Assembly (NCBI GenBank): GCA_007693835.1
Contig: RECW01000068.1
Span: 1 to 43,575 of the forward strand
Direction of reading: 5' to 3'
Source: Paracoccaceae bacterium
GTDB lineage: Bacteria > Pseudomonadota > Alphaproteobacteria > Rhodobacterales > Rhodobacteraceae
DNA length: 43,575 nucleotides
Shown here one piece after another: positions 3,768 through 12,643 of this stretch (its first letter is position 1; each line of letters starts with the position of its first letter). A program made the translations under genes and the position numbers. The notes beneath the pieces were generated by a model. It did not search any database. It was given only the letters and a program-made list of their open reading frames with translations, and had not been told where the DNA came from.

Positions 3768-4583
3768 TCAAGCGCCGAGCGCCGCGGCCCGGTCGAGCCA
3801 TCCGCGGGCGGCCGGGTCGCCTTCGCGGAGCGCGCTGCGGCCGGCGCGCCAGAACAGATCCGCGGCGGCGTTCCGGGCGCCCGCAGCCTCCGCGAGCGCG
3901 CCGGCGTCCGCGAGCAGCCGCGCCATCGCCCGCAGGTCGTTGGTGTCGCGCCGGCGGTCGGCCGCGGTCTCGAACAGGGTCGCGGCGTCCGCCGTCCGGT
4001 CCATGCGCGCCAGACGCGCCGCAAGCTCCGCGCGGTCCGCGACAAGCTCGGGGTCGGCGGTCTCGGGCAGGCCCGCGAGCGTCGCCGCCAACCGCGCCCG
4101 GTCGCCGCGCCGCTCCGCCGCGAGCCCGAGCAGGAAGCGCGCCCGCGCGGCGAGACGGGGATCCTCGGCTGCGGCCGCCGGCTCGGCGCGGCTCTCGGCC
4201 TCGCCCCACCGGCCGAGGCCTGCGAGCGCGAAGGCGGCCGTCAGCGACAGCGACGGCGGGGCGGCGACGTCGCGCACGCGGGCGTTCCGCTCGGCCGCCT
4301 CGGCGAAGGCGAGCGCCGCCGCGGGGTCGCCCGCGCGCAGGGCCGTCAGGGCGCGCTCCTGACCCAGCACGATCAGGGCGCGGGCGTCGTCGCGGGCCTC
4401 CGCGCGCGCCAGCGCCTCGTCGTAGAGCCGCGCCGCCGTCTCCCACCGCCCCTCCCGGAACGCGAACCGCGCGAGGTCGGCGGGCGCGGCGATGCGCGGG
4501 TCGAGGGGCGGCGGTCCGGGCGGCGCCGGGGCGCCGCAGGCCGAAAGCGCGGCGCAGGCGAGCAATACGCGCAGAGCCCTCAC
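3768..4583 (-). CDS. TPR-like lipoprotein, last gene of the MCE operon
   Basis: A 271-residue lipoprotein: a signal peptide ends in the lipobox LSAC, with Cys about residue 16, followed by a Pro-rich linker. The rest is all helix and Ala-rich, with repeated helix pairs such as FREGRWETAARLYDEALARAEA and AGDPAAALAFAEAAERNA. These resemble degenerate tetratricopeptide repeats used for protein binding. The GTG start overlaps the stop of the upstream mlaD-like gene (GTGA), so the two are translationally coupled. In Mla and Pqi systems this position is often held by a PqiC-type auxiliary lipoprotein. This product does not look like PqiC and may be a functional replacement (inference). Confidence 0.75.
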   Translation of the reverse strand: MRALRVLLACAALSACGAPAPPGPPPLDPRIAAPADLARFAFREGRWETAARLYDEALARAEARDDARALIVLGQERALTALRAGDPAAALAFAEAAERNARVRDVAAPPSLSLTAAFALAGLGRWGEAESRAEPAAAAEDPRLAARARFLLGLAAERRGDRARLAATLAGLPETADPELVADRAELAARLARMDRTADAATLFETAADRRRDTNDLRAMARLLADAGALAEAAGARNAAADLFWRAGRSALREGDPAARGWLDRAAALGA

Positions 4584-6481
4584 GGCCGGATCTCCGTCGG
4601 CCCCAGCGCGTCGTCGCGCGCCGCGCCGCCGCCGCCGAGCAGCCAGCTGCCCTGAAGCTGGCGCAGCAGCGCCTCCAGCTCGCGGAGCGTCCGCTGGGTC
4701 TGCGCCAGCAGCAGCGGCAGGTCCTGCGCCGAGGTCGCCGCGCCCGCCAGCGCGTCGCGCGCGGCCGGGAGCGTGCGCTCGGCTTCCGCCGCGAGCGCCC
4801 CCACCCGGTCGAGCGCGCGCTGCGCCGAAGCGGCGAGCGCCGGCGTCTCGGCCAGCGTCGCCTGCAGCGCCGGCAGCGCGGCTTCGGCCTGCGTCGCGAG
4901 CGACCCGACCTGCGCGAGCGCCGCCTCGGCCGCCGCGACGAGGCCAGGCGAGCCGTCGCCGACCTGTCGGAGCGCCTCCAGCGCCGGGGCGATGGCGCGC
5001 TCCGCCTCCGCCGCGAGTCGCGCGAGGCTGTCGAGCGTCCCCTGAGCCGTCGCCACCAGCGCCGGCGCGCCGGCCGTCGCCGTCTCCACCGCCTCCAGCG
5101 TCGCGGGGAGCCGCGCGGCGAGATCGGCGGTGAGCGCCGCCGCGGCGCGCAGCGTCTCGCCGGCTGTGTCGGCCAGCGGCGGCAGGGCGGCGGTGGTCGT
5201 CGCGGCGGCGCCGGTCACCGCGGCGAAGGCCGCCGGGGCGGTTTCGGTCAACCCCGCCGAGAGCGCGGTCAGCGCCGCCAGCGTCGTCTCGGCCTGGGCG
5301 GCGAGGGCGGGGGCGAGGGCGGCCGCCTCGGTCGCGGCGCCGAGCAGCGGCGCGCTGTCCGCGCGCAAGCCTTCGGCGAGGTCGGCGAGGGCCGCAAGCG
5401 TCGCTTCGGCCTGGGCCGTCAGGCCGGGCGCGGCGGCGGCGGCCGCCGCCACGGCGTCGAGCAGCGCGGGGGCGCGCGCAGCGCTCTCCTCGGCGAGGCG
5501 GGCCGCAGCCGACAGCGCCGCCTCCGCCTCCGCCGCGAGCGCCGGCGCCCGCGCCGCCGCCTCGTTCAGCGTCGCCATGAGCGCGGCGGCGCCGGCGGTC
5601 GCCTCAGACGCGCCCGCGAGCACGGCTTCGAGCTGGTCGAGCCGCGCCGCAAGGCCCGCGACGGCCGCCTCCGCCGCGATCGCCAGATCATCGCGCCCGA
5701 GCAGCCGGCCGACCGTGCCTTCGCCGCGCTCGATCCGCCCCGTAAGCGCCGTCAGGTTGTCGACCAGCCCTTCCAGCGCGTCCAGCCGCTCCGCGGCGGC
5801 GCCCACCGCGCGCTCGATCTGCAGCGCCAGCGTCTCGTCCGCGAACAGCCGGCCGACGGCCCCCTCGCCCGCGGCGATGCCGCTCGAGAGCGTGGCGAGA
5901 TCGGCGAGGAAGGATTGCAGCTCGCCGTCCGGCGCCGCGACCCGCTCCAGAGTCTCCGCGAGCGCCGCCATGCCGCGCTGGGCGTCGTCGAGCACCGGAA
6001 ATATGCGCGAGCGCAGGTCGTCGACCAGCTGGCCGAGATCGTCGGTGGGGGCGCGTTCGGTCTCGGCCTCGATGACGGCGAACTCCCAGTCCATCGCCGC
6101 GCCTTCGCCGGGGCGGATGTCGACGAAGGCGGCGCCGGCGATGCCGAACTGGCGGCGGATTAAGGCGCGGCTGTCGCGGCGCACGAAGTCGGCGACCGCG
6201 CGGTCGACGGCGACCATGGCGTGGAAGGCCTGACCGGGTTGCACCACCACCTCCGTCACGCGGCCGGCGCGGGCGCCGAGGATCTGGACCTCCGAGCCCA
6301 CCTGCAGCCCGCCGCCGCCCGTCGGCGGCAGCAGGAGCCTGAGCGGCAGTTCGGCGCGGAAGGCGTCGCGGATCACGCCGGCCTGCAGCGCGGCCACCAC
6401 GAGCAGCGCCAGCGCGAACAGCAGGAAGGCCGCGGGGCGGCGCCCGACATGCTGTTCGACGCGGCGGCGGCCCGGCGTCAT
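4580..6481 (-). CDS. MlaD/MCE family protein with long helical repeat region
   Basis: A 633-residue protein with a membrane anchor (about residues 17-36), one MCE domain (about 44-125, with GGGGLQVGSEVQILGARAGRV and RRQFGIAGAAFVDIRPG) and a very long Ala/Leu-rich helical extension. MCE domains form hexameric rings that carry lipids between membranes. Two GEGxVGRL motifs (about 205 and 253) are typical of MlaD-type extensions. From about 312 to 610 a unit of roughly 39 residues recurs eight times (starts near 312, 351, 390, 433, 472, 511, 546, 588), each beginning xPxLxxxAxxxL. E. coli MlaD is under 200 residues. The start at 6481 was chosen because ATGA overlaps the upstream stop and GGGAGG precedes it. 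Confidence 0.88.
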   Translation of the reverse strand: MTPGRRRVEQHVGRRPAAFLLFALALLVVAALQAGVIRDAFRAELPLRLLLPPTGGGGLQVGSEVQILGARAGRVTEVVVQPGQAFHAMVAVDRAVADFVRRDSRALIRRQFGIAGAAFVDIRPGEGAAMDWEFAVIEAETERAPTDDLGQLVDDLRSRIFPVLDDAQRGMAALAETLERVAAPDGELQSFLADLATLSSGIAAGEGAVGRLFADETLALQIERAVGAAAERLDALEGLVDNLTALTGRIERGEGTVGRLLGRDDLAIAAEAAVAGLAARLDQLEAVLAGASEATAGAAALMATLNEAAARAPALAAEAEAALSAAARLAEESAARAPALLDAVAAAAAAAPGLTAQAEATLAALADLAEGLRADSAPLLGAATEAAALAPALAAQAETTLAALTALSAGLTETAPAAFAAVTGAAATTTAALPPLADTAGETLRAAAALTADLAARLPATLEAVETATAGAPALVATAQGTLDSLARLAAEAERAIAPALEALRQVGDGSPGLVAAAEAALAQVGSLATQAEAALPALQATLAETPALAASAQRALDRVGALAAEAERTLPAARDALAGAATSAQDLPLLLAQTQRTLRELEALLRQLQGSWLLGGGGAARDDALGPTEIRP

Positions 6482-7152
6482 GCGTCCTCCCGCAGCTTGC
6501 CCGCTTCGGCGCCGAGGCGGAGCGTCCCCGCCGGGGCCGCAACGCGCGCGGCGTCCCGCGGCTCGGCGATCCAGAGCGCCGCGGCGCCCCGCGCCAGCGC
6601 GCGCAGGAGCGCGTTCATCAGCGCCGCCGCGACATCGGGCGGCGTCGCCTCGGCCGCGCGTTCGATCACCACCAGATCGGGCGCGCCGAGGAAGGCCTGC
6701 GCCAGCGCCAGACGTCGGCGGTCGGCCCGGGAGAGCGCGGAGATGGGCGCCAGCGCATCCGGCGCGCCGGGCAGACCGAAGGCGCGCGCCGCCCGGGCGC
6801 ATTGGGCGAGACGCGCCTCCGGCGTCGCCTCGCCGCGCCAGTCGAGCGCGAGCGCGAAGGCGTCGAGGGCGGCGAGATGGGGCGGCGGCCCGTCCTCGGC
6901 GAGCCCCACGCCGATCCGCGCGCGCAGCGCCGCCGCCTCGCCGGGCGTGGTCTCCGCCCAGTCCCGCCCGAAGACGCGCACGGCGCCCGCCTCCGGCGCG
7001 GCGAGGCCGAGGGCCGCGTCGGCGAGGGCGCGCGCCGCGGCGGGGTCGCCGATCTCCGCGAAGGCGAGCCGGCCTTCAGGAAGCTCGAAGTCGGCCGTCA
7101 GCCCGCCGATAAGGCGCGCGGCGTCGAAGACGAGAGGCGGCGGCGCGATCAT
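6478..7152 (-). CDS. Degenerate ABC ATPase homologue (MlaF position)
   Basis: A 224-residue protein that aligns by pattern with MlaF-type ATPases along its length but lacks every nucleotide motif. Where Walker A should be, residues 35-43 read GDPAAARAL, with Arg41 for the essential Lys. The signature LSGGM reads LSRAD (140-144). Walker B reads LVVIERA (160-166), with Glu for Asp and Arg for the catalytic Glu. The H-loop His is Glu197. The flanking framework is retained (APEAGAVRVFGRDW, DRRRLALAQAFLGAPDL), and the frame is open with ATGA overlaps at both ends, so it is a maintained gene and not an obvious pseudogene. Predicted not to bind or hydrolyse ATP normally; a structural or regulatory role is inferred. 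Confidence 0.8.
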   Translation of the reverse strand: MIAPPPLVFDAARLIGGLTADFELPEGRLAFAEIGDPAAARALADAALGLAAPEAGAVRVFGRDWAETTPGEAAALRARIGVGLAEDGPPPHLAALDAFALALDWRGEATPEARLAQCARAARAFGLPGAPDALAPISALSRADRRRLALAQAFLGAPDLVVIERAAEATPPDVAAALMNALLRALARGAAALWIAEPRDAARVAAPAGTLRLGAEAGKLREDA

Positions 7153-7907
7153 CGCGCGGCGGCGAACAGGAAGGCGATCAGCAGAAATCCGATCAGCGCG
7201 TTGCGGAACGCCGCGCCCGGCGCGTCCTCGCCCTCCGCCTCGATGGCCGCGCGGCTGAAGGCGACCGCGCTCGCGAGCGCGTAGAGCGCGCCCTTGAGAG
7301 GGCAGAGGACGAGCGGGGCGGGGCCGAGCGCCGTCAGCGCGTCGCGCAGGGTCGCGAGAAGGGCCCCGGGCGCGAAGAAGCCCTGCGTCTCCGCGGCCGC
7401 ATAGCCCGACACCATCGCCGCGGCGGCGAGGATCACCGAGAGCGCCGCGCCCGAGACGGCCGCGCCGAGGCAGCGCGGCGTCACCAGCATCGCCAGCGGG
7501 TCGATCCCCATCGCGTCGAGCGCCCGGAAGCCGCCGGCGCGGCGGGTCGCGGCGAGTTCGGCGTGGATCGCGAGCCCGCCGCGGCCGAGCAGGGCGAGGC
7601 CGGCCACCAGCGGCGCCACGTCCTCCAGCAGCAACCCGAGCAGCAGGCCGCGCACGAGCCCCTCCTCGCCCACGCCGCGCAGCACGCGGATCGCCTGCGC
7701 CATGAGGCCGGCGCCGAGGCCGGCGCCGATCAGGGCGAGGAGCGGCGCCGAGCCGACGCCGATGCGGTCGACGGCGCGGGCGAACTCCATGCGCGCGGGC
7801 CGCCGCCAGGCGTCGGGCGATAGACCGAGCTTGAAGACCGTCGCGGTCAGCGCGGCGTGGTCGAGGGCGCCGCCCGCCGCGCGGCCCAGCGCGCCCATGG
7901 CCGTCAT
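7149..7907 (-). CDS. MlaE-type ABC permease
   Basis: A 252-residue integral membrane protein of the MlaE/YrbE permease family, the inner-membrane component to which MCE rings attach. It has about five hydrophobic stretches. The family hallmark is at residues 117-146: ELAATRRAGGFRALDAMGIDP then LVTPRCLG, the counterpart of the coupling region that contacts the MlaF ATPase. The ATG at 7907 overlaps the TGA of the sensor gene upstream, and its own stop overlaps the degenerate ATPase start (ATGA both times). Because this coupling region is kept while the partner ATPase is degenerate, the pair is worth structural comparison. Confidence 0.88.
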   Translation of the reverse strand: MTAMGALGRAAGGALDHAALTATVFKLGLSPDAWRRPARMEFARAVDRIGVGSAPLLALIGAGLGAGLMAQAIRVLRGVGEEGLVRGLLLGLLLEDVAPLVAGLALLGRGGLAIHAELAATRRAGGFRALDAMGIDPLAMLVTPRCLGAAVSGAALSVILAAAAMVSGYAAAETQGFFAPGALLATLRDALTALGPAPLVLCPLKGALYALASAVAFSRAAIEAEGEDAPGAAFRNALIGFLLIAFLFAAAR

Positions 7908-10261
7908 CGCCGACCCCGCAGGTAATAGGCGGTGAGTTCACCCACGCCGTCGGCGTAGAACGCCCCGCGCGGCTGGAACGCGAAGCGCCCGACGAGCGCG
8001 GCATGGGCGACGTCGCCGGTCTGCACGGCGCCGAGCGGCGCGGTCTCCGCCAGAAGCCCGGAGACCGTGGGGGTCTCGCCCCAGAGCGCGAGGCCGCCCT
8101 CGCCGAGCGCCGCGCCCATCGCCGGCCCCGCCTCCAGCCCGAACCGCGCGATGCGCGCCCCGCGCCGTCCGGCGGCGAGGCGCGCGAAGTCCTCCTGAAG
8201 GCCGAGCGCCATGGCGGCCATCGCGGCCGCCGGCTCGGCCGGGTCGTCCGCGTCGAAGCCCGTCGCCGCGACGGCGCGGTCGCCGAGCAGCTTGAGGTAT
8301 GGCGCGCCCGCCGCTGCGGCCCGCGCGCGGAGCGCGTCGGCGAGGGCTGCGAACAGGGGGGCTGCCGACCGGCCGGCCTCGTGATCGGCGGCCGGCGTCG
8401 CGAGGGCGAAGGCGTCGGGGAAGACCACCGTCAGCACGGCGACATGCGGGAACAGGGCGGCGTCGAGCCCCGCCGGCGACAGACCCGACCGCGCGGCTGC
8501 GGCCGACAACGCCTCGGTCCGCTCCGCGACCAGCGCGGCGGCGGTCTGCGAAAGCGGCGGCAGCGACAGGCGTCGCCCGCCCGGCGCAGGCCGCTCCGCA
8601 GGCGCCGCCCCGCCTTCGGCGGCTGCGGTCGACGCGGCCTCGGCCGGCTCCGCGAGCCACGCGGCGGCGATGGCCCCGGCGACGCGGGCGAGGGCGAGCG
8701 CGTCGCCGGCCGCTTCGCCGAACGCGCCCGGGTCCTCCAGCAGCACGGCCCCGAGCAGCACGCCGTCGCGCGCGATCGGCGCGGCGATCAGCGTTTCGCA
8801 GGCCTCGGCGCAGGCGCCGGCGGCGACATGCGCAGGCTCCGGCGCGCCGCGCCACGCCTCGCCGTCGCGCAGCGCCGCGCGGAGCGCGCCGGCGGTCGCG
8901 GCGGGAAGGCGCGCGGGGTCGAGGGCGACATGGGCCTCGGCGTCCCAGCCCGCGACGCGCGCGACGGACGCGCCGTCGGCCTCCGCCCGCCAGAACGCCG
9001 CCCGCCGGTCGCCGGCGCCGGCGGCGAGCAGGCGCGCGCTCTCCTCGGCGCGTTCGGCCGGCCGTCGGCCGGGGGCTGCGGCGACTTCCGCGATCCGCGC
9101 GGCGACCGCCGCCTGCGCGTCGACCAGCGCGGCCTTCTCGGCGAGCTTTCGCGCGCGCCGGTCCGCCACCGCCGACTGGCGCGCCAGAAGGCCGGCGAGC
9201 AGCAGCGCGAGGCCGGTCACGGCCACCGAGACGATCAGGCTGTCGCGGTTGCTCTGCTGCACGAAGCGCGCGAACTCGGTCTCGGGTATCGCGACGAGCA
9301 GCCACCACGGCGCGCCGCCGAGCAGGCCGACGCGCGAGAAGGCGGCCAGATACCAGCTGTCGGCCACGCGCACGATGCCGCTGAAGTCGCGCGATATGCG
9401 GAAGCGGTCGCGCATCTGCGCGAGCAGCGGGTCGTCGATCTCTGTGGCGCCTGGCGCCACGCCGAGCTCCGCCGGCGCGACCAGCACGGCGCCGGCGTCG
9501 TCGACGATCACGGCCCGCCCGGTGTCGCCGAAGCCTATCCCGCCGAGCTGGCGGCTGAGGTCGTCGAGACGGATGTCGACGCCGGTCACGATGTCGGGCG
9601 CGTGCTCGCGCGCCACGGCGTAAGCCGCGGTGACGCCGGGGCGGCCGTCGGTGAAGAAGGTGTAGACGTCCGTCCATGTCGGGCCGTCGGCGGCTTCGGC
9701 CTCGGCGAACCACGCCCGCGTGCGGGGGTCGAAGCCGTTTTCCTCTCCGTTTTCCGCTGCGTCGCGGCTCTCCAGCGTGCGGCCGTCGGCGTCGAGGGTC
9801 TCCTCGATGATGCGCCGCCCGTCGACGCCGAGGGCGATCGCGCGCCGGCCGAAGGCGCCCTCGGGCGTCCGGAAGGTCATCAGGAAGCGCCCGTCCGCGT
9901 CGGCGCCGAAAATGGCCGCGAACTGCGGGTTGGCGCTCAGCATCTCGAAGGCGAGGCGGCGCGAGGCGGCGGCGCGGAGATAGGCCGCCTCGTCGGGTTC
10001 GGAGGCGACGGCGTTCTGGCCGATGGCGACCGCGTAGAGCCGCACCGCCGTCTCGGCGGGCGTCAGGAAGTCGCGCACCTCGCGCGCGACCACCGCGTCC
10101 ACGGCCTCGACATAGCGCTCGGCGAGGGCGAGGGCGCCGGCGCGGTTGGTGCGGTGGTTGAGCACGCCCATGGCCACCAGCCCGCCGGCGATGGCGAGGG
10201 CGAGCACCAGCGGCCCGCCGAGGCGGGCGAAGCGGCCGCGGTCGGGCGCCGGCGCCGCCAC
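7904..10261 (-). CDS. dCache-GAF-like membrane sensor with degenerate class III cyclase domain
   Basis: A 785-residue protein. A first membrane segment (about 15-34) is followed by a periplasmic double-Cache domain (about 40-335, with RAWFAEAEAADGPTWTDVYTF) and a second membrane segment (about 341-360). Then come a short coiled coil, a GAF-like region (about 400-535), a Pro/Ala linker and a class III nucleotidyl cyclase homology domain (about 605-783). In that last domain the metal Asp residues (D616 in VVFPD, D661 in KLLGD) and K657 are kept. The adenine-selecting Asp is Ala725, and the catalytic Asn and Arg are Thr732 and Leu736 (WGETPTVSGLL). Synthesis of cAMP is therefore unlikely by family rules. 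The GTG start lies 7 bases after the RAM gene stop, with GAGGGG upstream. Confidence 0.82.
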   Translation of the reverse strand: MAAPAPDRGRFARLGGPLVLALAIAGGLVAMGVLNHRTNRAGALALAERYVEAVDAVVAREVRDFLTPAETAVRLYAVAIGQNAVASEPDEAAYLRAAASRRLAFEMLSANPQFAAIFGADADGRFLMTFRTPEGAFGRRAIALGVDGRRIIEETLDADGRTLESRDAAENGEENGFDPRTRAWFAEAEAADGPTWTDVYTFFTDGRPGVTAAYAVAREHAPDIVTGVDIRLDDLSRQLGGIGFGDTGRAVIVDDAGAVLVAPAELGVAPGATEIDDPLLAQMRDRFRISRDFSGIVRVADSWYLAAFSRVGLLGGAPWWLLVAIPETEFARFVQQSNRDSLIVSVAVTGLALLLAGLLARQSAVADRRARKLAEKAALVDAQAAVAARIAEVAAAPGRRPAERAEESARLLAAGAGDRRAAFWRAEADGASVARVAGWDAEAHVALDPARLPAATAGALRAALRDGEAWRGAPEPAHVAAGACAEACETLIAAPIARDGVLLGAVLLEDPGAFGEAAGDALALARVAGAIAAAWLAEPAEAASTAAAEGGAAPAERPAPGGRRLSLPPLSQTAAALVAERTEALSAAAARSGLSPAGLDAALFPHVAVLTVVFPDAFALATPAADHEAGRSAAPLFAALADALRARAAAAGAPYLKLLGDRAVAATGFDADDPAEPAAAMAAMALGLQEDFARLAAGRRGARIARFGLEAGPAMGAALGEGGLALWGETPTVSGLLAETAPLGAVQTGDVAHAALVGRFAFQPRGAFYADGVGELTAYYLRGRR

Positions 10262-10268
10262 GCGCCCC

Positions 10269-10505
10269 TCAGAAGGCCTTGAAGGTCAGAGTCGTCACCG
10301 TGCGCCGGACGCCGGGGATGTCGTGCAGGTTCTGCGCGACGAAGTGGCCGATGTCCTGCTCGCGGTCGAGGTAGAACTTGGCCAGCAGGTCGTACTCGCC
10401 GGAGATCGAGTAGATCTCGGACGCGATCTCCCGGTCGGCGATGGCGGCGGCGACCGGGTAGGTCTGGCCCAGTTCGCACATGATGTGGACGAAGAAGCAC
10501 TGCAT
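10269..10505 (-). CDS. Stand-alone Lrp/AsnC ligand-binding (RAM) domain protein
   Basis: A 78-residue protein consisting only of the RAM domain of Lrp/AsnC regulators, without a helix-turn-helix. It begins MQCFFVHIMCELG, then has SISGEYDLLAKFYL and ends HDIPGVRRTVTTLTFKAF, the normal pattern for the ligand-binding half of the family. RAM domains assemble into octamers or similar rings and bind amino acids at subunit interfaces. Stand-alone versions are known, but their targets are mostly unclear. The ATG at 10505 shares a base with the hydrolase stop (TGATG), and the sensor gene follows after 7 bases, so it belongs to the operon. A role as an amino-acid-responsive partner is inference. Confidence 0.88.
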   Translation of the reverse strand: MQCFFVHIMCELGQTYPVAAAIADREIASEIYSISGEYDLLAKFYLDREQDIGHFVAQNLHDIPGVRRTVTTLTFKAF

Positions 10506-11377
10506 CAGCGGTCTCCCGGAAAGCGCCCGACAAGGCGCGACACGAGCGCCGAACCCGGATCGGCCAGCGCGTCGACGACGTCGAAGTGATGTCGGCCCAC
10601 GGCCTCGACGGCGGCGACCGGCAGGCCGAGGCCCGTCCATGCGGCGGCGAGCAGCGCGGTCTGGCGCCGGAACGCGGGCAGCTCCGCCGCGCCGACCCAC
10701 GCGGCGACGCGCGGCGCGGCGACGGGCGCCAGCAGCGCCGGGCTCTCGGCGGCGGCCTCGGTCGCGTCGAGGCGCAGCGTGTCGTTCATCGACGTGCGCC
10801 GCAGCGGCCGCAGGTCGTGCACGCCGCTGATCGAGACCACCGAGACGACGCGCGCGAGGGCGTCGGGGGCGAGCGGCGAGCCCTCGGCGATCAGCCGCGT
10901 CACGAGTTGACCGCCCGCCGAATGTCCAACGAGCGCGATCGGCCCTGCGATCCGCGCCGCGGCGGTCTCCACCGCGCGGGCGACGCTGCGGGCGATGGCG
11001 GCGATGCGCGCCTCGGGGCAGAGCGGATAGCTCGGGACGGCGACGGCCCAGCCGCGGCCGAGCGGGCCTGCGGCGAGCCAGCTCGACGCGCTCTTGTCGA
11101 ACGCCTTCCAGTAGCCGCCGTGGACGAAGACCGCGAGGCCCTGCGGCGCGCCCTCGGGCAGGAACAGGTCGAGCCGTTCGCGGGGATGGGCGCCGCAGGG
11201 GACGTCGATGTCGCCGCGCGCCGTCTCGCGGAACGCGGCCGAGCGCGCCGCCCACGCCGCGAAGATCGCCGGCGCGTCGGGGACGGCGGCGCTGTTGGCG
11301 TAGGCGCGGTCCCAGGCGGCGACCGGCGCGTCGGCCGCGGGGACGTCGGGCGGGCGCGTGTCGGGCGGCGCGATCAT
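10505..11377 (-). CDS. Alpha/beta hydrolase, kynurenine formamidase-like
   Basis: A 290-residue alpha/beta hydrolase of the esterase/arylformamidase type. It has HGGYW (oxyanion hole, about residue 113), the nucleophile elbow GHSAGG, an acidic position in VGAAELPAFRRQ, and a probable catalytic His in GRHHFDVVDAL. HGGYW and the HFDVV ending are typical of bacterial N-formylkynurenine hydrolase-like (KynB-analogue, BD-FAE) proteins. No other tryptophan catabolism gene is next to it, so the substrate is uncertain. No signal peptide. It is the promoter-proximal gene of the seven-gene operon. Its start at 11377 has no strong ribosome binding site, so this start is less certain than the others. Confidence 0.82.
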   Translation of the reverse strand: MIAPPDTRPPDVPAADAPVAAWDRAYANSAAVPDAPAIFAAWAARSAAFRETARGDIDVPCGAHPRERLDLFLPEGAPQGLAVFVHGGYWKAFDKSASSWLAAGPLGRGWAVAVPSYPLCPEARIAAIARSVARAVETAAARIAGPIALVGHSAGGQLVTRLIAEGSPLAPDALARVVSVVSISGVHDLRPLRRTSMNDTLRLDATEAAAESPALLAPVAAPRVAAWVGAAELPAFRRQTALLAAAWTGLGLPVAAVEAVGRHHFDVVDALADPGSALVSRLVGRFPGDR

Positions 11378-11494: not shown

Positions 11495-12643
11495 ATGAAA
11501 CACGCCAAGGCGCTGGCGCTCGCCGCAGCGATGGGCTTCACGGGCATGGCCGCGCAGGCCGAGACGCTCACCGTCGGGATGATGCTGACGCTCTCCGGCC
11601 CGCCCGCCGCGCTCGGCCAGCACATCCGCGACGGTTTCCTGCTGGCGCTGGAGGAGAAGGGCGGCGCGCTCGGCGGCATGGACGTCGAGCTGATCGTGGT
11701 CGACGACGAGCTTCAGCCCGACCTCGCCGTGACCCGCGCCCGCGCCCTGCTGGAGCGCGACGGGGCCGACATCGTGATCGGCACCGTGTTCTCCAACGTG
11801 ATGATGGCGGTGTTCCGGCCGGTGATCGAGGCCGGCGTGGTGCTGGTGAGCCCCAACGCGGGCCCGGCGCCGCTCGCGGGGCGCGGCTGCCACGCCAACT
11901 ACTTCAACACCGCCTGGCAGAACGACAACAACCACGAGGTTCTGGGCCAGCACGCGACGGACGAAGGCTACGAGCGCCTCGTCCTGATCGCGCCGAACTA
12001 TCAGGCCGGCCGCGACGCGATGGAGGGGGTGAAGCGCTTCTATCGGGGCGAGGTGGTGGACGAGATCTTCACCCAGCTCGGCCAGCTCGACTTCTCCGCC
12101 GAACTCGCGCGCGTCGCCTCCCTGCGGCCCGACGCGGTCTACGCCTTCATGCCGGGCGGCATGGGGGTGAACCTCGTGCGCCAGTTCGCGCAGGCGGGCC
12201 TGACGATGCCGTTCCTCTCCGCCTTCACCGTCGACGAGACCACGCTGCCCGCCACGCAGGCCGACGCCGTGGGGATGTTCGCGGGCGCCCAGTGGGCGCG
12301 CAACCTCGACAACGAGACCAACGCCGCCTTCGTGCCCGCCTTCGAGGCGAAGTTCGGCTACGCGCCGTCGCTCTACGCGAGCCAGGGCTACGACACCGCG
12401 CTGATCCTCGACGCAGCCCTCGCCGTCGCGGGGACGGCCGAGGCCGAGGCGCTGTCGGCGGCGCTGAAGGCGGTCGAGATGGAGACGACGCGCGGCGCCT
12501 TCCGCTTCGGGCCGAACAACTTTCCGGTGCAGGACTATTTCCTCGTGCAGGCGGTCGAGCGCGACGGCCGCTTCGTGACCGAAGCCGTCGCGACCGTGTT
12601 CGAAAACCACTCGGACGCCTACGCGGCCGACTGCAGGATGTGA
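11495..12643 (+). CDS. Branched-chain amino acid-type ABC substrate-binding protein
   Basis: A 382-residue periplasmic binding protein of the LivK/HAAT type. A Sec signal peptide (about residues 1-22, ending MAAQA) is followed by TLTVGMMLTLSGPPAALGQHIRDGF, the usual N-terminus, then a type I periplasmic fold with HANYFNTAWQND and ASQGYDTALILDAAL. It is the first gene of a five-gene importer operon. The family binds leucine-type amino acids, amides, aromatic acids or other small organics, and the sequence does not say which. The following glutaryl-CoA dehydrogenase gene hints at a substrate degraded through glutaryl-CoA, which is only a contextual suggestion. Confidence 0.88.
   Translation: MKHAKALALAAAMGFTGMAAQAETLTVGMMLTLSGPPAALGQHIRDGFLLALEEKGGALGGMDVELIVVDDELQPDLAVTRARALLERDGADIVIGTVFSNVMMAVFRPVIEAGVVLVSPNAGPAPLAGRGCHANYFNTAWQNDNNHEVLGQHATDEGYERLVLIAPNYQAGRDAMEGVKRFYRGEVVDEIFTQLGQLDFSAELARVASLRPDAVYAFMPGGMGVNLVRQFAQAGLTMPFLSAFTVDETTLPATQADAVGMFAGAQWARNLDNETNAAFVPAFEAKFGYAPSLYASQGYDTALILDAALAVAGTAEAEALSAALKAVEMETTRGAFRFGPNNFPVQDYFLVQAVERDGRFVTEAVATVFENHSDAYAADCRM

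Follow-up and report, generated by a model that had tools for sequence, protein, structure and literature searches.

The way in which MCE systems are powered is a matter of debate, as is the direction in which they carry lipid. In Pqi/Let, MCE transport takes place without an ABC ATPase in the operon; these systems use the membrane proteins PqiA/LetA and proteins that each carry several MCE domains. Here we describe a seven-gene locus at 3768-11377 of a 43,575-nucleotide contig from a Paracoccaceae bacterium (GenBank assembly GCA_007693835.1, contig RECW01000068.1; the whole contig is hereafter the window), five genes of which form a conserved unit encoding a membrane receptor (the sensor), an MlaE-type permease, an ABC-like protein, an MCE protein and a TPR lipoprotein. 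The unit resembles Mla (MlaFEDB in E. coli and relatives) in having an MlaE permease, an MCE protein and a subunit of ABC fold that matches MlaF. It differs from Mla in an ABC protein without Walker A, in the addition of the receptor and the TPR lipoprotein, and in the absence of a STAS protein (MlaB), MlaC and MlaA, for which Pfam gave no match among the seven operon proteins, the rest of the genome lying outside that search. With Pqi/Let it shares an MCE system without a working ATPase in the operon, but it has an MlaE permease, with no Pfam match to a PqiA/LetA membrane protein among the seven, and a single MCE domain (one MlaD match in the window protein). The Mla-Pqi chimera Mpc of Hyphomicrobiales, proposed to bridge both membranes, is likewise encoded by an operon of MlaE-, MlaF- and MCE-type genes plus one more (mpcEFDA; PMC12436622); the part of that report consulted here names no receptor gene in the operon, and the additional gene differs. 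No description of the five-gene operon was found in the literature searched, most subscription papers being beyond reach. An earlier sequence-only reading of the window knew of no described system with the composition of the seven-gene locus.

The genes of the conserved unit and their domains are as follows.

7904..10261, minus strand: sensor, a membrane receptor of 785 amino acids with dCache, GAF and class III cyclase-like domains (Pfam; model)
9293..10093, minus strand: periplasmic dCache_1 domain of the sensor (Pfam; motif residues; fold match)
8672..9055, minus strand: GAF domain of the sensor (Pfam, 23.8 bits, cut-off 22.4)
7907..8467, minus strand: class III cyclase domain without catalytic residues, a predicted pseudo-cyclase (alignment; fold match to CyaB)
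7149..7907, minus strand: MlaE-type permease, 252 amino acids (PF02405, 85.4 bits, cut-off 22.5)
6478..7152, minus strand: ABC-domain protein, a predicted pseudo-ATPase, 224 amino acids (Pfam ABC_tran, 26.6 bits, cut-off 25; model)
7027..7056, minus strand: degenerate P-loop of the ABC protein, residues 33-42 (Lys absent from the Walker A position in all 50 aligned members)
4580..6481, minus strand: MCE protein, 633 amino acids (Pfam MlaD)
6107..6313, minus strand: MCE (MlaD) domain (PF02470, 33.7 bits, cut-off 25.1)
3768..4583, minus strand: TPR-like lipoprotein, 271 amino acids, probably of the outer membrane (lipobox; TPR matches below Pfam cut-offs)
4536..4538, minus strand: codon of the lipobox cysteine, residue 16 (Cys invariant in the family)

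Loci were chosen by the MCE gene alone, through a scan of genome contigs with an MCE alignment that yielded 93 relatives, 80 loci being kept. The sequence-only reading had tied its proposal to conservation of the gene order in relatives, and the order sensor-mlaE-abc-mce-lipoprotein is found on one strand in 73 of the 80 loci, beyond what chance would give. Under a length limit all five genes are near full length in 61 of 80; the shortfall elsewhere comes from contig ends or from genes divided among several matches (the sensor in L118; the lipoprotein in L081, L100, L103, L122 and L134), and the MCE gene is split in L066, L080 and L116. Five of the seven exceptions to the order are truncated by contig ends (L072, L089, L091, L092 and L093). 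On the 4,554-base contig of L124, abc-mce-lipoprotein are present with no mlaE match in the 1,286 bases upstream of abc, despite room, and no sensor is shown. The module recurs in many acetic acid bacteria and in relatives of these; the hosts include Acetobacter, Komagataeibacter, Gluconacetobacter, Asaia, Commensalibacter, Elioraea, Azospirillum, Skermanella, Dongia, Reyranella, Vineibacter, Geminicoccaceae, metagenome-assembled genomes (MAGs) of Rhodospirillales and one Desulfobacterales MAG. This last (L060, CP070697.1) carries a complete five-gene module that sits among the alphaproteobacterial ones in the joined tree, which reflects either transfer or a binning error.

The ABC set comprised 83 full-length members, L063 and L037 being the same locus, and the alignment 50 members picked for spread. 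The Walker A motif GK[S/T] occurs in 0 of the 83, the position of the missing Lys being fixed by a family-profile alignment to V. cholerae FtsE that runs without gaps across the P-loop. The Walker B Asp position holds Asp in 0 of 50 members (Glu in 45, Gln in 4, Ser in 1), Glu is present at the catalytic Glu position in 4 of 50, and the column taken for the switch His has His in 2 of 50. These residues rule out that the subunit is an ordinary ATPase. The family retains an Arg/Gly pair at the Q-loop along with parts of the signature helix, and at E 0.01 Pfam ABC_tran finds 27 of the 50 aligned members. The AlphaFold2 model of the window protein (predicted local distance difference test score, pLDDT, 90.8; predicted template modelling score, pTM, 0.88) matches the ABC domain of 1l2t with Z 24.7 (root-mean-square deviation, rmsd, 2.2 over 214 aligned residues) and E. 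coli MlaF with Z 23.4 for 6xgz (rmsd 2.6, 218 aligned) and Z 23.3 for 7ch7. Sequence and model together identify the subunit as a conserved predicted pseudo-ATPase that keeps the full ABC fold. The description of the transporter as ATPase-less in the sequence-only reading is corrected accordingly: the subunit that it called ABC-like is a predicted pseudo-ATPase with the fold intact.

A comparable loss is seen in the sensor, for which 46 members picked for spread were aligned. Pfam finds dCache_1 in 46 of 46, GAF in 46 of 46 and Guanylate_cyc in 45 of 46; the cyclase-like domain of the window sensor itself has no Pfam match. The sensor model has a pLDDT of 83.6 and a pTM of 0.48, so that the placement of the domains relative to one another is uncertain. 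Residues 600-785 superpose on CyaB (3r5g) with Z 23.7, rmsd 2.8 and 179 residues aligned, and the family profile matches Rv1625c (7yz9) at E 5.8e-35. The domain therefore has the fold of the class III nucleotidyl cyclases but differs from them in having lost the catalytic residues: in columns set by alignment to solved cyclases, the first metal Asp is kept in 1 of 46 members, the second metal Asp in 13, the transition-state Asn in none and the Arg in 3. The domain should make no cyclic AMP or cyclic GMP by the known mechanism, and the output domain, labelled "cyclase-like" on sequence alone, is corrected to a predicted pseudo-enzyme. Because the loss of catalytic residues leaves no obvious enzymatic output, output through protein-protein contact is likely.

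The periplasmic part of the sensor model matches PctD (Z 21.2) and the amino-acid receptor PctA (Z 20.8). The amino-acid motif of PctA, as given in the part of the source consulted, is Y121, R126, W128, Y129, Y144 and D173 (PMC10104139), and the window residues F177, R182, W184, F185, Y200 and D229 reproduce this spacing exactly. The window sensor resembles PctA, a dCache_1AA receptor, in the dCache fold and the spacing of the motif residues, and differs from it in that two motif Tyr are Phe and in that the sensor is tied to a pseudo-cyclase and a lipid permease rather than to chemotaxis. Across the 46 members the motif Arg is kept in 45, the Trp in 46 and the Asp in 33, and all six PctA residues are identical in 7.

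The MlaE family profile, from an alignment of 37 members picked for spread, matches solved MlaE at E 1e-27, and the window permease falls below the NCBIfam TIGR00056 threshold (60.1 vs 212.2). The MCE protein, likewise below the NCBIfam OM_asym_MlaD threshold (24.6 vs 135), has one N-terminal transmembrane stretch (by eye), a single MCE domain and a long helical tail; the best match of its profile is PDB 13hr, "Mce/MlaD domain-containing protein". At 633 amino acids it is about double the length of three relatives (333, 316 and 325 amino acids), the excess being an Ala-rich helical tail, and within the window gene (4583-6481) the guanine-cytosine content rises to 81% in the tail region. The TPR matches of the lipoprotein are weak and below Pfam cut-offs. 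Its lipobox Cys is present in 32 of 32 aligned members picked for spread and is followed by Gly in at least 90%. Under the E. coli Lol rule this predicts the outer membrane, where the TPR lipoprotein is probably located.

Selection on the five genes was estimated from the ratio of nonsynonymous to synonymous substitution rates (dN/dS) in 14 pairs that we chose among close relatives. Median values were 0.088 for the sensor, 0.075 for the cyclase part that makes up its last quarter, 0.071 for the pseudo-ATPase, 0.048 for MlaE, 0.051 for the MCE protein and 0.094 for the lipoprotein. Both dead domains, ABC and cyclase, are under purifying selection; selection holds them as tightly as the rest, and they are therefore no remnants. 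Independent phylogenies of sensor and transporter, which the sequence-only reading had raised as a point against itself, are not indicated by a mirror-tree comparison in which the distance matrices of the five genes correlate (r 0.81-0.95, 64 loci), a result for which vertical descent alone would suffice. In single-gene trees the window stands beside Geminicoccaceae for the MCE protein and the lipoprotein, in a wider group with Geminicoccaceae for the sensor, and elsewhere for MlaE and ABC. Its place thus varies between single-gene trees, and no donor is claimed for any transfer.

We propose that the five genes encode a receptor-gated, ATP-independent MCE lipid conduit, a reading whose mechanism we infer and which we hold at about even confidence. 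A receptor is joined to an inter-membrane lipid transporter whose motor protein has lost its ATP-binding site, a combination which suggests that a signal, and not ATP, opens the conduit. An inner-membrane complex like MlaFED would be built from MlaE, the pseudo-ATPase and an MCE ring, and the helical tail of the MCE protein would extend from it in the direction of the outer membrane and its TPR lipoprotein. In the periplasm the dCache domain would bind a small ligand, probably an amino acid, and the resulting change would be passed across the membrane to the GAF domain and the pseudo-cyclase. These two would dock onto the pseudo-ATPase, or onto MlaE, and so switch the lipid path open or shut. 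Movement of the receptor would substitute for the ATP-driven closure of the ABC dimer, with lipid following its gradient. That ligand binding has in this manner replaced ATP hydrolysis, with an MlaE/MCE bridge between the membranes gated by the dCache receptor through pseudo-cyclase and pseudo-ATPase, is put forward more tentatively, at a little short of even chances. The signal-responsive transporter proposed from the sequence alone is retained here insofar as a sensor gene is joined, conservedly, to the MlaE and MCE genes, and is narrowed to five genes. Several observations weigh against a gated conduit. The dCache Asp is Asn in 11 and Ser in 2 of the 46 sensors, from acetic acid bacteria in every locus with a named host (L055, the remaining one, groups with Commensalibacter), so that the ligand may vary; the substrate Lys of the cyclase domain is kept in 27 of 46, and the domain may bind nucleotide without catalysis; and L131, a Roseomonas MAG, has the four transporter genes without the sensor despite room, a long gene on the opposite strand lying upstream instead, so that the sensor has been dispensable at least once.

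A further such point concerns the supply of ATP. Another MlaE gene lies beside a Walker A ATPase in 8 of 8 module-bearing genomes examined, and ATP could come from there. In seven relatives, 13 other MlaE loci were examined and each has an open reading frame (ORF) bearing Walker A and LSGGM; the window genome, where the sequence-only reading had suggested looking for a second complete mla operon, has a Walker A ATPase in each of two further MlaE operons (G000:C41, L169, and G000:C270, L168), so that the ATPase encoded elsewhere which that reading had envisaged may exist. Other ABC systems are known to include mixed dimers in which one site is dead, and the pseudo-ATPase might dimerise or alternate with the MlaF of a canonical operon as a regulatory half-site, the intact subunit powering transport in trans. 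We regard this as rather unlikely: the module is conserved together with its dead ABC gene, the 83 ABC members include no intact one, and other ABC-profile matches occur in the flanks of only 5 of the 80 loci. Nucleotide use by the ABC subunit itself, by an unconventional route despite the loss of Walker A, would fit the conserved ABC fold, Q-loop pair and signature-helix parts, but the Walker A Lys, Walker B Asp and catalytic Glu are lost in most or all members and we consider it very improbable.

A dead motor with a receptor nearly always present would also be expected if there were no net transport and MlaE, the MCE protein and the pseudo-ATPase served as a lipid-responsive co-receptor for the sensor or as a regulator of canonical Mla. 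Transporter-like co-sensors are known, for example BceAB with BceS. Here the sole recognisable output domain of the sensor is dead as well, so that no downstream signal is evident, and the retention of the MCE protein and of a lipoprotein of outer-membrane type is what a conduit would lead one to expect; such a sensing complex appears improbable. Decay of the operon might be read from a broken copy in G141, a genome of the window's family, and from the presence of the ABC family in only 2 of 292 genomes of the order (E 1e-25, one of the two being that broken copy). We find a decaying or non-functional operon scarcely credible: the five frames are open in the window, distant relatives share the same catalytic losses under purifying selection, and for the family dN/dS well below 1 rules it out.

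If the receptor-gated reading is correct, an MlaE-type ABC assembly is run as a receptor-gated conduit, for which no precedent was found in the literature searched, and two pseudo-enzymes have seemingly been kept together for coupling rather than catalysis. A widely conserved natural MlaE/MCE system without its own working ATPase offers a clean test of the need for ATP, and also of the possibility of coupling lipid traffic directly to an external signal; the module is present in culturable acetic acid bacteria, Azospirillum and Reyranella.

The module is rare within the window's own order. An ABC-alignment search of 385 genomes of the class separated module members (n = 6, 193-369 bits) from generic ABC proteins (at most 80 bits), and at E 1e-25 the ABC family was found in 6 of 398 phylum genomes; the class, phylum and order samples overlap. 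An MlaE protein search at E 1e-10 matched 2 of 149 genomes of the family. Genome searches also recovered the five genes in G096, G501 and G085, and L063, one of the 80 loci, is the contig that carries the G096 locus. With the ABC protein as a single query, 83 of 101 genomes matched, mostly through generic ABC proteins; among the matches listed, the module members were the window, G096 and G085, and the region near the ABC match in G087 held no other module gene. The same query against contigs of genomes gave no match. The broken copy in G141 (L036, about 6700-11000) has stops and missing stretches in the second half of the sensor, the MCE gene and the lipoprotein.

The source genome (G000) is a draft of 3.24 Mb in 280 contigs, the window being contig C250. 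Its G000:C41 operon looks Mpc-like, with MlaE, a Walker A ATPase, an MCE protein and a lipoprotein. The seven window genes lie on the minus strand with all five frames of the conserved unit open, in the places and with the overlaps and gap that the sequence-only reading had given: TGATG between hydrolase and RAM, a 7-base gap between RAM and sensor, ATGA at sensor/mlaE, mlaE/abc and abc/mce, and GTGA at mce/lipoprotein. Its names for the genes agree with Pfam for all seven (TPR matches below cut-off). Two of them lie outside the conserved unit.

10505..11377, minus strand: alpha/beta hydrolase of the HaHSL family (Pfam Abhydrolase_3; NCBIfam HaHSL, 339.9 bits, cut-off 320)
10269..10505, minus strand: RAM (Lrp/AsnC ligand-binding) protein (Pfam AsnC_trans_reg)

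The RAM protein is a stand-alone RAM domain of 78 amino acids without a DNA-binding part, whose gene overlaps the hydrolase stop and ends 7 bases before the sensor. The proposal of a seven-gene operon as the unit was rejected: a scan of 84 loci other than the window, with flanks of up to about 7 kb, gave no RAM match and a single hydrolase match, on the opposite strand in L066. The two genes are a local addition to the conserved unit. No flanking gene family is conserved across groups, and the largest flank cluster, a SulP-like permease (by eye), is found on the opposite strand in 18 of 83 loci, those shown being from acetic acid bacteria. In the window, the divergent plus-strand neighbour at 11495-12643 encodes a Peripla_BP_6 binding protein, and behind it lie what look by eye like permease genes of the branched-chain type; together they may form an amino-acid uptake system next to a receptor of the amino-acid type.

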